NCBI RefSeq assembly: GCF_016097555.1
Contig: NC_054702.1
Coordinates: forward strand, 69,068,195 to 69,132,194
Length of the DNA: 64,000 bases
Direction of reading: 5' to 3'
From: Gigantopelta aegis
Taxonomy: Eukaryota > Mollusca > Gastropoda > Neomphalida > Peltospiridae
Shown: positions 28,518 to 57,628 of the stretch, piece after piece
Layout of the letters: every line of letters begins with the position of its first letter
How positions within the stretch are numbered: position 1 is the first letter of the stretch
Position numbers and translations under genes: made by a program
Notes under the pieces: model-generated
What the model was told of the DNA's origin: nothing
The model's database searches: none
The model's input: only the letters and a program-made list of their open reading frames with translations

Positions 28518-30023
28518 GGTGACCGGTCAAAAACCCCTCCGGTCAAAACCCCCTCGGTCAAAACCCCCTCAGTCTAAACCCCCTCCAGTCAAAACCCCCT
28601 CCAGTCAAAACCCCCTTATTTAGGAAATAATTATAAAAAATGACAAAATAATTAATACCCAAAATATTTATTCACACTTGCATATTATAAGATTTGATTG
28701 CATAGACTTTTGTATAAGTCATAATCCATTAGATCGCATTTAGATCTATTTCCATCTGATGCAGTGTCCGATGCCTTTGAGAGTATCCTCCATTGACTTA
28801 GCACCATCTTGGCGGGCTGTGCACAAATTCAAGAGCTTAGACTGCAATTTGACTGTTTTACGGCGAACACTTTTGCTGGGGGCTCACCCCTCAATGATTA
28901 AGTCTTGAAGTGATTGTGGATTTTTAGGAAGATGCTTGGCACGCTCCCGACGTAGTGTACGTTTCACAACTTCTGGGTTGCCTAGAGCAGCACGAATATC
29001 AGTTGTAGCAGTTGCTGTAGTATCCACGACTATCTGGGTTGGCGTACCCCGCGATGTACCACTTACGTTCTTTTGTGTTTTTAAAGCCTGCACTAGCTGC
29101 AACAGAGTCGGGATTGGGATCATGAGTGTGTTGGACAGTGTGTATCACTGTCTGGATCTCAATATCTGTGGTCACTGCTCCCTTGCAAGAAAAGGAAGCC
29201 CTGTTGGAGCATTCCCATCGCACTGTAGACTTAGACTTGTTCTTTTGGTATACATATATCCTTCATGCAGAAGTTTTGACCACTCCTTGTGAAACAAAGT
29301 ATCACTTCCATGGTTGTTCACAGAATGAATGATTAATAGACCAGACCCTAACCATTTTCTGTGTAGCATCCCATGTGACATTTGCTAGTCATGTACTCTA
29401 CTTTTTTTGTTCAAAAATAACTGCTCAATCATTAATCCCATCAATAGCTAAGAGCCCTTCAATAGCTAAGATCACATAAGTAACAGAGATTGCTAATTAC
29501 TATCAAATTCTTTCATTATATTATTTAAAGGATTTCTCAAGGCTTCCCAAACATTAATCCCTGCAGCAGCTAGCCAAGATCAAGCTGTTGTTGTTGTTGT
29601 TGTTGTTGCTAATTACTATCATGTTCTTTCCTTATATTGCAAATTACTATCAAGTTCTTTCATTATACTATTATCCATATAAGTAGTTTTCCTAGGCTTC
29701 CCAATTACATCTATCTCTAAGATCAAACATTTTGTAAAAACTACAATTCTAAGTCTATGAGTAGCTTCACTGAAAGCCTAAAGTCTATGTAGTGTAACAT
29801 ACACTAAATAACAACATAAATAAATATATTTCAGATAATTATTCAAAAGAGATTAAAACAATTATTCATCTATGTTAATATTATACCAACTTTACCACTA
29901 TAAATACCAAACAATAATAATAAGAGGGGGTTTTGACCGTCTGACTATTTATTGCAGGGGGTTTTGACTGGAGGGGGTTTTGACCGAGGGGGTTTTGACC
30001 GAAGGGGGTTTTCACCTGGATTC
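28518..30023 (-). mobile_element. MULE-type DNA transposon, non-autonomous, 9-bp target duplication
   Basis: An exact 9-bp duplication CATTATTAC flanks the element (28509-28517 and 30024-30032), the size expected for Mutator-like elements. Both ends are arrays of a 15-17 bp unit, GGTCAAAACCCCCTC and variants: about six copies at 28525-28618, about five in inverted orientation at 29925-30012. The outermost 20 bases pair imperfectly (14 of 20). The interior holds a broken reading frame on the - strand resembling the N-terminal part of MULE proteins (separate entry). No transposase catalytic core is visible, so the copy cannot move by itself. Confidence 0.78.
28884..29381 (-). pseudogene. Decayed N-terminal part of a MULE protein (FLYWCH-like zinc-finger region)
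   Basis: Three overlapping - strand frames read as one broken protein. The first (29381 to about 29230) holds G-Y-M-Y-T-K-R-T. The next (29223 to about 29090) holds W-E-C-S-N-R…C-K-G-A and a H-T-H-D run. The last (about 29090-28884) holds S-R-G-T-P-T-Q and ends in L-Q-D-L-I-I-E-G before a stop. This order (W-x-C…C-x-G-A…H-x-H, then a basic arginine-rich segment) is typical of FLYWCH-like domains of MULE elements. At least two frameshifts break it. Family identity is from memory of the pattern, not a search. Confidence 0.6.
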
Positions 30024-45560: not shown

Positions 45561-48500
45561 CTGGAATAGAAAAGTCCGAGTGTAATACACATACATTGTA
45601 TTAACAAAATGATGGAAAAATAAAATACCAATGATACAAAGTTTGACAGTTAAATAAGGAGTATACAGACCTATAGTCCATCCCATCATTCTATAAAAAT
45701 GTTTTTTTGCTATTAATTTCAATTTTGTTTGATGTACAATAAAAGTAAAAGTGTTTTAAAAATAAAAAAAAGCATCCTATTTTTGTGTGTAATTTACAAA
45801 TATATTGGCTCAGAAATAAATAACTTGTAGTAAATTTCATAGTATGAAAAAAGGCATTCCCTATGGGACGGACTATACGCATGCATTCAGAAATTTGTCA
45901 GTATCTGTGAAATGAGTAACCTTAGAAATGAAAATCTACCATCTTCTGTGACCAGAGCCCCGTTCCACAAAGCGATGTTAGTGCCAAGATCACGGTAAGT
46001 GCATATGTTAGCTGTCCAGTTACGGTGATCTTAGAGCTAAGATCGCTTCGTGGAATGGGGTCCAGGTGGTTAAGCCATCAGACTTAAGGCTTGTAGGTAT
46101 TGGGTTCACGTTGTAGTACTGGCTGCCACTCACAGTGAGTTTTTAATAGGTCAGTGAAAGAATGTAAGGCCAGTATACTGATTTCTCTCCCACTAACTGA
46201 CTGCTAATAACTAACCATTCAATCCTGTGCTAGAGAGACAGCCCAGATAGCCAAACTGTGCACCCAGAACAGAATGCTTACATTTTTGTTAAAAATAAGC
46301 ATTAAAAAATCAAGTTGAAATGAATAAAAGAATGGATGGATGGATGGATGGATGGATGGATGATAGATGGATGATGGATGAATGGATAGATGGATGAATG
46401 GATGGTTTGGATGGATGGATGGATGGATGGATGGATGGATGGATGGATGGAATGGATGGATGGATGGATGGATGGATGGGTGGTTTGGATGGGTGGTTTG
46501 GATGGATGGATGGATGGATGGATGGATGGGTGGTTTGAATGGATGCATGGATGGATGGGTGGTTTGGATGGATGGATGGACAGACAGACAGACGGACGGA
46601 CGAATGAGAAATGTTTGAAACATTTATGAATAAATAAATGAAACTATTACCAGTAGACAATGAATTATGAACAGAAAATCACCATTTAGAAACCATTTTT
46701 ATAATTATGTAAAATAAATATTAAAAGTAAAAGATGTGAAACCTTACCATACATTCACAGGACGTGCAGGGGTCCGTGTTGAGCACCCAGCTGTCCCCGT
46801 GTCCGTACGTGTGTCCGCGGTACATGCAGGTGTCCATGGAGTGGTCGAGTCCCCCGATCCCGATGTGTGGGCTCAGACACGGGTTGTCATCGATACAGCG
46901 CGGGCAGCAGTCGCCCTTCTCCTGCACCATGTTCTGACACGCTGCGGAGGGACACTCAATAGGCCAGCAGTCCACCTCGCCATGCTGAAATCATGAAAAA
47001 CAGCACCAATTATAGTAGGTTAATGAACTGAGTAACTGTTTGTCTATATCCATTGGTTTGTTCATTTATTTATTTATCCATCCATTCACCCACCCATTCA
47101 TCTATCCATCTTTCCATTTGTTCATCCACCCACTCATCCTCCCACCAACCCATCCATCCATCCACATACCAACCTTGAACCCACCCACCCATCTATTTAT
47201 CCATCCGTCTACCAATACTTCCATCCATCCATCTTTTTATTCATCCTTCCATCAATCCATCTTTTTATTCATCCATCTATCCATACATCCATCCACAAAC
47301 CAATCTCTAACCCATACATTCATCTATCCATTCATCAACAAACCACCAACTCTATACCCATCCATCCACAAACCACCCATCCATCTTTCCATCCATCCAC
47401 AAACCAATCCATGCATCCATCCAACCCAGAACCCTGACAGCAAATCCACCTACATGTATTCCTTCTACGTATCTATCCATTAAAAGAACAAAAAAACTAA
47501 AAATAATCATCTTTATTACTGTGTACTAGAAGAATATAGAGCATCAGTTATTACCAGACATTCACAGGTTTGACACTGGAAGATCCACTGTTCTCCATTC
47601 TGCATGAGCAGCTCAAACTCCTGATGTTGGCACTGAGCAGACTGGTTGCAGTGGGGGCAACAGTCGTAGTCAACATCGGCCTGGGAACAGTCACAGGCCA
47701 TCTTGTGGCAAGTAGCTACACCAGCCTGTGAAAAACAACACATGTATGTAATGAATAAACAAGAGAGAATTAGACCTAACACTTCTGCCAATTCATATCA
47801 TACTTTCAAGGTGTTCATTCATTCAATCATCTGTCCACTCATTCTTGAGGTTGCAATACCAGCCTCGATGGCGTTGTGGTTAAGCCATCAGACATAAGGC
47901 TGGTAGGTACCGGGTTCACAGCCTGGTACAGCTCCCACCCAGAGTGAGTTTTAACGACTCAATGGGTAGGTGTAAGTCCACTACACCCTCTTCTCTCTCA
48001 CTAACCACTAACAAACTAAGCCCCAAAATAAGTTGAAAAGAAAGGAGATTTCAATACCTTTAAAAGAGTTGGACTGTGACAGATATAAAGGGTTATTCAT
48101 GATGACCTCCTAAAGAACTTTAAAAAAAATTATCTTTTTTTTGGTTGTAATTATGAAACTGACATCGGGGGGGGGGGGGGGGGGGGGTGGGGGGTGGGGG
48201 GAGAAGAAAAATTATTGACAGAAATTGTTTTCTTTTTCTTTGACCAAAAATATATTGTGGAGTATCATGAAAGATAGCTGGTTGAAGAATCATGAGTCAA
48301 TCACCACCTCTTGAGATACATGTACCACCAAGATAAATCAAAGTGCAGCAATATCTGGCCAAGTGGGCACATCTGTCAATAAGTCACCTCTTCAATCTCA
48401 AATCCAAAGCATTTAATTAATATAGTACAAACTGACCGGTATTAAGTAGCCACCTGTTCTAAAGTTGAACCACTAGAGCACATTAATTAATTAATCATTG

Positions 48501-51500
48501 ACTTTTGAATGTCAAGCATTTGGTAATTGTGGCATGTAGACTTCAGAGGACACCCACTACAGGTATACAGGTGAGACAACTGTCGACTAACGAGGGTTTG
48601 AGTTAGTGTGTGAGTTCTATTGTTTGACATACCTTACAGGTACAGGTGAGTTTTTATTGTTTGACATACCCTACAGGTACAGGTGAGTTCTATTGTTTGA
48701 CATACCTTACAGGTACATGTGAGTTCTATTGTTTGACATACTCTACAGGTACAGGTGAGTTCTATTGTTTGACATACCTTACAGGTACAGGTGAGTTCTA
48801 TTGTTTGACATACCTTACAGGTACAGGTGTGTTCTATTGTTTGACATACCTTACAGGTACAGGTGAGTTCTATTGTTTGACATACCTTACAGGTACAGGT
48901 GTGTTCTATTGTTTGACATACCTTACAGGTACAGGTGTGTTCTATTTTTTGACATACCTTACAGGTACAGGTGTGTTCTATTGTTTGACATACCTTACAG
49001 GTACAGGTGAGTTCTATTGTTTGACATACCTTACAGGTACATTTGAGTTCTATTGTTTGACATACCCTACAGGTACAGGCGAGTTCTATTGTTTTACATA
49101 GCTTACAGGTACAGGTGAGTTCTATTGTTTGACATACCTTATAGGAACATGTGAGTTCTATTATTTGACACACCTTACAGGTACAGGTGAGTTCTATTGT
49201 TTGACATACCTTACAGGTACAGGTGTGTTCTATTGTTTGACATACCTTACAGGTACAGGTGTGTTCTATTGTTTGACATACCTTACAGGTACAGGTGAGT
49301 TCTATTGTTTGACATACCTTACAGGTACAGGTGTATTCTATTGTTTGACATACCTTACAGGAACAGATGAGTTCTATTGTTTGACATACCTTACAGGTAC
49401 AGGTGAGGCAGCTGTCAACTGACGACTGCCAGGTATCTCCATCACTGTGTTCAGCCCCCTCAAAGAGACAGGCTATAAATACAAACAATTAGAAACCACA
49501 CATACACAAGTCAAACAATAAACTACAATTTATACTTAATTATTTTATACAAATTCAAACATTGTGTAAGTTTAAAACTTAAAAGAAAACACACCCCGCA
49601 GGTATATTGGGATTCTTTTATTTAGAAACAGTGTTTGTTTTAGCAATTATAAAAATCAATAAAATCAAATTATAAATTTTAAAACTTTATTCATTCATAT
49701 TTCTGATTATTTACACAAAATATCTGTTAAAGGCACTTAAAAGTATATAAAGTATCAGTAATATATTAATTTAGTCCAAGTATCTGCAGTTAATGAAACT
49801 GTAAAGAACTTTATAGATCTATTGTCAACCAAATATCTAAACATCAAATATCTTACTTTCCAGACATGTGTTGGTGTTTTTGCACTTGCATTCGTAGCTT
49901 CCTTCTGTGTTCACACATTGCATGCTGGGATGACAAGTATGGCCGCCACCTTCACCAATACATTCATTAATATCTAAAATTAAAAAAAGAAAAAGAAAAA
50001 AAGTTAACTAAATTATGTAATTTTATGAGAAAAAAAAAATGTTCACAAACTTTTCCTCTCCAAATAAAGCAATCTGAAATATGACACAGTTATGACTTTT
50101 TTTAATTCCGATCGTTCACAATATGAAGTAAAATTATGCTGAATGTGTTAGTCATAGATGAAGTAAATATGAACTTCATCAGTCCATACTGAAAACTATT
50201 TCACAGATTTTGTTATAAAATTATAGTTTATAAAAGTAAATGTGTTCTCTTGTATACAAATGTTGTAAGAAATAAAACTTACGTAATATAAACTATCAGC
50301 CATGATTAAATTATTTGCCTTATACTTGATATACAAAAATTAATATAAACATATAAAAATTTATCTTTTTTCCTTATTTCTGTTTATATTTCTAGAGTTT
50401 AAAATACCAATTTCATTCTGTTTTAATATTACCGGTACTTACGTAGATCTGAAAGTTAAGATTGTAAAATGTGAATATCAATCTGTAGGGTTTAAAACCC
50501 CCTAAAAAAACCCTACAAATATAGTAGGACCATTGAAGAATAACATAAAAACAAAAATTCCTTCAATACAAAAACTACTAACATAAGTATTTACACAAAC
50601 ACTGAAGAATATTTCTATGCTAACACACAACATTTACTTAGAAACATGCAACAATAAAAGACTGGGAAAGATGAACCAAAATTTAAGCATTAAAAGAAAC
50701 TCTAGCCACAGAAACTACTGCTAAAATATTTTAGAAATATACAGGTAATGATGTGCTCATGTGTGCATATTATTGGACATTTTAAATAAGCGCTACCAAA
50801 ATTTTAACAGTACAATGGCAAAAGTACATGCACAAGACCATGATCCAACTACAACGTGGTACACATAAATGTACAGATATGATAACGTAGCGCTGACATC
50901 AACAAAGTCTTCTGTAACTGAGACGTAGGTGAAAGTTTCTGTTACAATATCGTAACTAGTATATGAAAAGTCTTTGCCGTTTAAGGGGAGTGATCACTCT
51001 CACTCCCCATCACTCCCCTGAAACTAGTTTAAGGAGAGTAATTTGTAGCTCCCCTTAGCCTGTAAATTTATATGGTATCAATGTGGTAATATCTCTAGGA
51101 TCCACATTAGTGAAGCAATTAATCACTCCCCTCAATAATTTTTTTCTCATTAAGGTTTGCATATACATATTTATTTAACATCAAGAAAATAGTTATTAAT
51201 TAGATTCAAATTTCCTCATTGCTATTGCTGCCTCACAGGAGATAGTAATTTTCTTCACCATAATTATCAATCAATGAAAGCTAATTTAACATGTACTGTA
51301 TATTACAAAACAAAATTTGGCTTTAGCACAACCAAAAAAAAGAATCAGTGAAGTAATAGCTAGCCTTAAATATTAAGGAAAACCATCCTTTTGGAGGATG
51401 TTTGGAGGGGGGAGGGGGAGAAGGGGAGGGGAGGGAGAAGAGGAGGGGAGGGAGAGGCAGAAGGGGGGTGAGAGGAGGGGAAGAGAAAGGGAGAACAGGT

Positions 51501-54805: not shown

Positions 54806-57628
54806 CAACCCCCCCCCCCCCCCCCCCGGTTAAAATCGTAACAGAAGTCCACATCAATAGAATAGATGTTTAATGACACCCCAGCATGAAAAATACACCA
54901 GCTATTGGGTGTCAAACAATGGTAAATACAAAGCATGAAGTGATGAACCACATTAATATAAAAATTCAACAGTTAATTAAAAACACAGTGTAAAGAACTG
55001 AGGAAAAAAGAAGTCCACATCAAGTTATGTAACCCATCATATCCCAGTATTAAGAAGATTGAAGAAGAAACCTTTTTAGTTCATTGGTTGTTTTTTTCAT
55101 TTTTGATTTATTTTCATTTCATTTCAACTTATTTTCGTGCTTATATCCAATTAAGATTCAAGCACGCTGTCCTGGGCACACACCTCAGCTATCTGGGCTG
55201 TCTGTCCAGGACAGTGGATTAGTTGTTAGCTAGTTAGTGAGAGAGCAGAGGTGTAGTGGTCTTACACCTACCCATTGAGCCCTTAAGAACTCGCTCTGGG
55301 TTGGAGCTGGTACCGAGCTGCGAACCCTGTACCTACCAGCTTGTAGTCCGATGGCTTAACCACTGTGCCACGAGGCCATTTTTAAAAAAAAATTCATGCT
55401 AAGATCCATTTAAAGTGGAAGTACACTATCCTGAACACATACCTTGGTTATTTAGGTTCTCTGTCCAGAATTGAGATTATTTCTAGCACCTCACGAGTGA
55501 TATATCAAAGCCCATGGTATGTGATACATATCAGACTTACCATATATTTGACATCCAATAGCCAGTGATTAATGAATAAATGAAAGAACAAAAACTTTAA
55601 CTGTTTTGGTTAATGAAAGAAAATTTGGTATAGTGCTGGATCAATACCTTCCTCATTCCCCATTACAAACGTATCTGGGTAGGAGCTGGTGTTAGGATAT
55701 GTGAACTTACAGCAACCCTACCATTACAAAGAATGGATGTAACATTAGAGCACTTACCATTCTAAAGAATGGATGTGAACTTGCAGCATCTACCATTATA
55801 AAAAATGGATGTGAACTTGCAGCATCTACCATTACAAAGAATGGATGTGAACTTACAGCATCTACCATTATAAAGAATGGATTTAAACTTATATCACCAA
55901 CCATTCTAAAGAATGGATGTGAACTTATACCAACTACCATTATAAAGAATGATGTGAACATACATCACCAACCATTCTAAAGAATGGATTTGAACTTATA
56001 CCACCTACTATTATAAAGAATGATGTGAATTTACATCACCAACCATTCTAAAGAATGGATGTGAACTTATACCACCTACCATTATAAAGAATGATGTGAA
56101 TTTACATCACCAACCATTCTAAAGAATGGATTTGAACTTATACCACCTTCTATTATAAAGAATGATGTGAATTTACATCACCAACCATTCTAAAGAATGG
56201 ATGTGAACTTATACCACCTACCATTATAAAGAATGATGTGAATTTACATCACCAACCATTCTAAAGAATGGATTTGAACTTATACCACCTACCAAAAAAA
56301 GTACCATTCTAAAGAATGGATGTGAACATACATCTCCAACCATTCTAAAGGTCAGTGACTTATCCATGACCTCTGTGTGCCACCATGCAAGTCTCATAAA
56401 CACTGCTGTAGAGTACATAACGTTTTGAAAAAAAACCTATTAACCCTTCATGTCCTCAGCTAATTTGTAGGTTCCAGACAAGACACTGTTGGCATAGCAA
56501 TTGTCTCAGTTATTACCAGGAAGACAGACAGTTCCAGATCTTGCAGGTTGATCAGATTCCATGATGGTAACCTGTGTGTGGTGTGCCCATTCTACCCTGT
56601 CACACATGACACCTCTTTCCCTTTAATGCTGCCGCAGAACACATAACCTTGTACAACTTGTGTAATTGCTGATGACACTTTATGTAAAATGAATAGCCTG
56701 TGCATACCCGAATTGGATGAAGAATTTGTTTCCTTGTGATGTAGTCTGTATGGCGGGGCAATAAACAAAGGAGAAAGGGCATGCTTTAGATAATGTATTT
56801 GCACAGAGGACATTAAAGCACATACTAGTTACTCAAGGTGGTCTGAAAGACACAATGCAGGGAATTACAAGCAGTTATTCATTATGTACTTGCTAACTCG
56901 GTATAAGGCTGGCTGACTTGCTCACAAGTGGTACATCTGCACCAGTAGGTGAACACAGACTGTATGACTGTATGACGGCCTTAATGATGCAGTGGTTATG
57001 CCAACAAGTTCTAGGCTGGGAAGTATTGGGATTAAATGCCTGATTCAGAACTTAAACTTAAATCTCCAGGAGAGTGTGCTTGAACAGTGTTCTGATGAAA
57101 ACATGCCAAAGGTTTCCCCACTGGCTGGCTGGTGTTGTATGACTGTGGACAAATCCAGACTGGCACTGTGCACACTGTGAACAAATGAGTTGGCCACTCT
57201 CCTGAATTTGCTTAGTGAAAACCCATACACTACCAGACTGATAGCTGGTGCATAATGAGTTCATATCCCATTTGGGACATATGATTAGCAGCAGCATCCC
57301 ACTGTCAGAATAATACATACCACAGCTTTTGTTACACCAGTTATGTCTCTGTCTGTCTCTGTCTCTGTCTCACTATCTGTCTGTCTGTCTCTGTCTCACT
57401 CTCTCTCTGTCTCTGTTTCACTCTGTCTCTGTCACACACACTCTCTCTCTGTCTCTGTCACACACACTCTCTCTCTGTTTCTGTCTCACACACTCTGTCT
57501 CTGTCTGACACACTGTCTCTGTCTCACACACTCTCTCTCTCTCTGTCTCACACACTCTCTCTCTCTGTCTCACACACACTCCCTCTCTCTCTCTGTCTCA
57601 CACACACTCTCTCTGTCTCACACACACA

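Follow-up and report, generated by a model that had tools for sequence, protein, structure and literature searches.

We analysed a window of 64,000 nt from the genome of the gastropod Gigantopelta aegis (RefSeq assembly GCF_016097555.1, contig NC_054702.1, positions 69,068,195 to 69,132,194), the minus strand of which carries part of a NELL gene, and characterised in it a 36-bp minisatellite of 22 units that spans the boundary between one exon of this gene (here exon D) and the following intron. Judged from the sequence, the array is very probably neutral, an unusually long example of what has been called a mirage in amphioxus, that is, a minisatellite that arose by chance across an exon-intron boundary and in doing so multiplied a splice donor.

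The NELL exon and its multiplied donor

The joined exons of the gene matched NELL2 chains of solved PDB structures (E 9e-36), and a search with the joined-exon protein returned molluscan NELL proteins as well as two G. aegis models, with identities of up to 74% to the NELL homologues of other molluscs (among 120 of 1456 matches). Pfam matches in the gene were VWC and EGF_CA; the EGF and VWC modules stood in NELL order and showed NELL-level similarity, which places the gene in the NELL family. Within 174 kb around the window, eleven stretches were matched by the two public G. aegis models, or ten if the odd first exon of one model is excluded. The public annotation splits this one NELL gene into two models, P0030 and P0006, described as NELL1-like and NELL2-like. 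The intron between exon D and the next exon, E, is 1664 nt long, and its features are collected in Table 1.

Tandem Repeats Finder (TRF; reporting threshold, score 50) described the array as 22.1 copies with a period of 36 bp, a score of 1398 and 93% matches. Such agreement among units indicates homogenisation by concerted evolution, and pairs of units, taken 1 to 20 units apart, differed by 1.85-2.59 positions on average, with no clear increase with distance. Each unit joins CTCACCTGTACCTGTAAG, the last 18 nt of exon D, to GTATGTCAAACAATAGAA, the first 18 nt of the intron, and the repeated segment therefore spans the exon-intron boundary in all 22 units, as expected of a mirage. Translated, the unit gives 12 residues with three Cys and no stop. 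The original prediction, made from the letters only, had described the composition and copy number of the unit, its open translation and the retention of GT in 21 of 22 units, all of which were confirmed by TRF, translation and unit-by-unit reading. Its estimate of about 20 distal in-frame donors came close: 19 distal GT donors are in frame (units 1-20 minus unit 8), and one inserted nucleotide ahead of unit 21 puts the last donor (48632) in another frame.

The donors themselves are nearly uniform. Over the 22 units, the donor 9-mers were AAGGTATGT (17 units), AGGGTATGT (two), AAGGTGTGT (one), AGAGTATGT (one) and one dead form, AAGCTATGT at 49101, so that the full AAG/GTATGT donor is present in 17 of 22. 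Donor strength was expressed as the energy of pairing with the 5' end of U1. On this scale, the 17 identical donors pair at -6.8 kcal/mol each, three at -6.2 and one at -4.6, and the remaining one is dead. Only 4.4% of 1171 GT sites sampled from the window pair with U1 as well as the 17 do. The 21 U1-pairing GT sites of the array span about 760 nt, and 20 of them fall between -6.2 and -6.8 kcal/mol.

Table 1. Features at the exon D boundary (positions in the window).
Feature	Position	Strand	Basis
NELL exon D, first part of VWC module	49390..49472	-	83 nt, ends in phase 0; PDB NELL2 match, NCBI model P0006
NELL exon E, acceptor partner	47555..47725	-	model P0006; ends read from sequence
36-bp x 22 minisatellite across NELL exon D/intron boundary	48610..49407	-	TRF and unit-by-unit reading
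First, presumed authentic exon D donor GTATGT	49384..49389	-	sequence; splice of model P0006
Donors of units 1-21, spaced 36 bp apart	48632..49353	-	20/21 keep GT; last (48632) out of frame
Dead donor of unit 8, GT to CT	49100..49101	-	unit-by-unit reading; U1 pairing
CTCAC opening first unit, possible birth point	49403..49407	-	read from sequence; mechanism inferred
CTCAC after last unit, then unique intron	48610..48614	-	read from sequence
Probable decayed duplicate of exon D end, beyond array	48558..48593	-	alignment to exon D

Splicing, constraint and rival explanations

The public model P0006, itself a prediction, joins the donor at 49389 directly to exon E (CLTCTCK/AGVATC) and includes zero array residues. 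We examined 120 of the 1456 homologues found; 89 carried the junction motif and were assessable, and 31 lacked it. The cysteines on either side of the junction were separated by six residues in 88 of the 89 and by seven in the other one, and array residues, which were searched for, were absent from all 120 homologues examined. In addition, when exon D and the array were read through as one 284-aa product, Pfam gave no family with an E of 1 or less.

Mutation within the array was distributed almost evenly. Changed cells made up 6/198 (3.0%) of the donor columns vs 21/594 (3.5%) elsewhere; among the 16 distinct changes, four fell in the donor (P = 0.63 for this many or fewer), three were synonymous vs 3.9 expected, and none created a stop vs 0.7 expected. 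Donor and codon positions thus show no visible constraint, and no sign of selection on the donors or on the reading frame inside the array was detected among 22 units, a small sample. The open frame over 20 units carries little information as well, because any open unit whose length is a multiple of 3 will give such a frame, and it would be a by-product of the 36-bp period. An array at another exon (33 bp x 44, locus L050 on contig C2) is open in two frames of 513 and 581 aa, and the 581-aa frame runs on through an EGF exon.

Several explanations of the array were weighed against these results. The original prediction had named a length-variable exon end, a sink for U1 and, as a fallback, a neutral expansion whose frame is kept by homogenisation; the data favour the last. 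A functional role finds no support here, because the donor columns are not spared, P0006 uses the first donor and the Cys spacing is fixed in 88/89.

First, the array could be a length-variable exon end, the downstream donors of which are used in some tissues, each step adding 12 residues and three Cys inside the VWC module and so giving a family of NELL isoforms. We regard this as very unlikely: the 19 in-frame distal donors, most of them identical to the first, would allow it, but donor and codon positions show no constraint, the public model contains zero units, the read-through matches no Pfam family, and each 12-residue step would break the fixed Cys spacing at the junction. A human precedent also speaks for such isoforms. 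According to the available text, the minisatellite of human 6-16/G1P3/IFI6 supplies several splice donors, of which those of two downstream repeat units are reportedly used (PMC4526556). The G. aegis array is like the human one in being a minisatellite that offers multiple splice donors, and unlike it in that use of the downstream donors is reported for the human gene, the distal donors of G. aegis being candidates predicted from the sequence. The unit of the IFI6 minisatellite is reportedly about 12 bp. The source cited for this minisatellite is Turri, Cuin and Porter 1995 (NAR 23:1854). A related claim, that the array forms a ladder of 20 near-identical in-frame competing 5' splice sites, at least one of which beyond the first is used and gives a series of NELL proteins dependent on copy number, also appears unlikely.

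Second, the array might act as a sink that binds many U1 small nuclear ribonucleoproteins and thereby influences how the long NELL transcript is spliced or prematurely polyadenylated; the density of U1-pairing GT sites described above would suit such a role. Mutation hardly spares the donor columns, and arrays of the donor octamer are present at many other places in the genome; we rejected the sink as the principal explanation for both reasons and consider it very improbable. For the octamer AGGTAAGT, a pattern of three spaced copies was found at 1225 overlapping genome places vs 3021 for the reversed control pattern, counts in which single long arrays weigh heavily on both sides; there was accordingly no genome-wide enrichment of the triple pattern over its reverse.

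Third, the array may have been collapsed or inflated during assembly. The sequence comes from a single assembly, and no second haplotype contig with the array was found in a whole-genome search of that one assembly with two units; this search gave 12 matches, all inside the array, and the tool skips common words, so that absence elsewhere is unproved. The units nevertheless carry private variants at distinct places, and, in the available text, one section of the genome paper deals with PacBio sequencing of the host. We rejected an artefact as the main explanation on these grounds and judge it very improbable, and the copy number of the array may be inexact.

Boundary repeats in other genes and other animals

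Boundary-spanning repeats are not limited to NELL in the G. aegis genome. In the neighbourhood of the gene, arrays of period 10 or more make up 12.1% of 169 kb of non-N sequence, and repeats at splice boundaries were surveyed in a sample of EGF exons, comprising 80 of 150 scored EGF_CA matches (1889 candidates) that were picked by hand down the list and taken with 250 bp on each side. The boundary rates from this sample are rough, because it represents one domain family, was hand-picked and contains partly related loci, L108 and L126 looking like one event. At 11 of the 80 loci, an array lay within 30 bp of the domain. By script, which could not identify one acceptor and two donors, 7 of 79 acceptors and 4 of 78 donors were inside arrays, and array coverage was 10.9% in the flanks and 4.3% in the domain cores. 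Whole EGF exons are tandemly duplicated at L081, L091 and L103, with units of 173-218 bp; when these three loci are removed, the counts inside arrays fall to 4 of 76 for acceptors and 1 of 75 for donors.

Individual loci included a donor-side repeat of 97 bp (L100), an acceptor-side repeat of 41 bp (L107), a 101-bp acceptor-side repeat common to L108 and L126, and a 100-bp repeat that extends five or six bases into the exon (L085). At L068, a 37-bp array overlaps the domain match over its final 28 nt; this candidate was seen by eye and left out of the counts. At L050, the 33-bp array (262-1725) extends to the acceptor of the EGF exon, and the pyrimidine-rich stretch of that acceptor is therefore repeated. 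Judging from this sample, tandem duplication across splice boundaries appears to be a recurring event in this minisatellite-rich gastropod genome. The several candidates also point to mirages as a possible recurring route to duplicated splice sites in a mollusc, beyond the lancelets in which they were named. Recurring duplications of this kind bear on the gain of splice sites and introns.

The term mirage was introduced for minisatellite-like duplications of exon-intron boundaries in amphioxus (PMC3087553). From the available text of the two amphioxus papers, the genes concerned are Adh3, the globins BflGb6 and BflGb9, TnC and PGBD5, the latter two having been added by the second paper (PMC3902484), and the published data suggest that regular splicing goes on undisturbed (PMC3087553; PMC3902484); the repeated signals could act as cryptic sites (PMC3087553). 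Like these mirages, the G. aegis array spans an exon-intron boundary; unlike them, it lies in a gastropod NELL gene and on the donor side, with a 36-bp unit repeated 22 times and open in frame, and is known from the sequence of one assembly. The amphioxus mirages and the human IFI6 minisatellite (PMC3087553; PMC3902484; PMC4526556) refute the original prediction in one respect, namely that no minisatellite around a 5' splice site had been described, and its claim to novelty therefore fails. No mollusc mirage was found among the titles and abstracts listed in searches of open-licence papers, a weak negative given this coverage and queries worded without a mollusc term. In addition, the array can be compared with the Rogers model of intron gain via tandem duplication of AG/GT proto-splice sites, as discussed in the available text of PMC3087553. 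The AG/GT sequence is duplicated in G. aegis NELL as in that model; unlike in the model, there is no new intron, and the array sits within an intron already in the gene model. Intron gain by AGGT duplication was rejected, the acceptor joined to exon E (47726) lying about 880 nt beyond the array and outside the duplicated segment.

The neutral mirage is the reading that we prefer. Exon definition pairs a donor with the upstream acceptor, and the first donor, which stays beside the 83-nt exon D, would be used for this reason; the remaining donors are intronic and would be mostly or wholly ignored. Four points weigh against this interpretation. First, a predicted model such as P0006 may simply favour the first donor. 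Second, use of distal donors is compatible with the sequence, because U1 pairing is equally strong for all 17 identical donors. Third, in the human IFI6 precedent, as far as the available text goes, splicing is said to use two of the downstream units (PMC4526556). Fourth, in the EGF sample without the three whole-exon duplications, donor boundaries lay inside arrays at 1/75 vs a flank coverage of 10.9%, with one further case, L068, by eye; the donor rate is well below the coverage, and small donor-spanning arrays therefore look selected against or usually removed, which suggests that small donor-side arrays are uncommon and that a 22-unit array in NELL is not routine.

The array offers a natural test of how the spliceosome chooses among about twenty near-equal neighbouring sites. 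To our knowledge, the choice between competing splice sites has mostly been studied with two sites or with artificial duplicates.

Origin of the array and neighbouring repeats

The array is bounded by two 5-nt direct repeats, CTCAC each. Because CTCAC opens the unit and also resumes the intron, the ancestral site may have held two CTCAC pentamers 36 bp apart, and direct pentamers at unit spacing are a typical setting for the birth of a minisatellite. Beyond the array lies a probable degenerate duplicate of the exon D end, as judged by its alignment. It matches at 30 of 34 nt with a 2-nt insertion, 16 of the 34 nt belonging to the repeat unit, and its score of 41 compares with at most 27 in 2931 control stretches. 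In the 18 nt outside the unit, 14/18 match in register, and at least 14/18 was reached by 2 of 127,964 placements in the window, namely exon D itself and the duplicate. A free local alignment with exon D minus its last 18 nt was weak, 186 of 4852 controls reaching the score, and no homology was detected in the intron beyond the duplicate (1389 of 2000 shuffles reach the score). A GT at 48557, which adjoins the duplicate and pairs with U1 at -6.8 kcal/mol, may be a further candidate donor.

We infer an origin in three steps. The exon end was probably first duplicated into the intron. A later event, either slippage or unequal exchange involving the two CTCAC pentamers 36 bp apart, would have duplicated the boundary, and growth and homogenisation would finally have brought the array to 22 units.

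Other arrays were observed in and around the gene. A second minisatellite in the NELL gene has 27 copies of 25 bp (L011:180-855, or 84180-84855 in window-extended coordinates), and the first exon of the predicted model P0006 ends within it, at the third donor-like copy. Another 36-bp array, of 16.6 copies, occupies 55699-56294 in a NELL intron; its minus-strand unit contains GTAAGT, and it touches none of the placed NELL exons. Elsewhere in the window, 28523-28616 (GTCAAAACCCCCT) and 29956-30016 (AGGGGGTTTTGAC) are arrays of reverse-complementary units about 1.3 kb apart, which may mark the termini of a mobile element.
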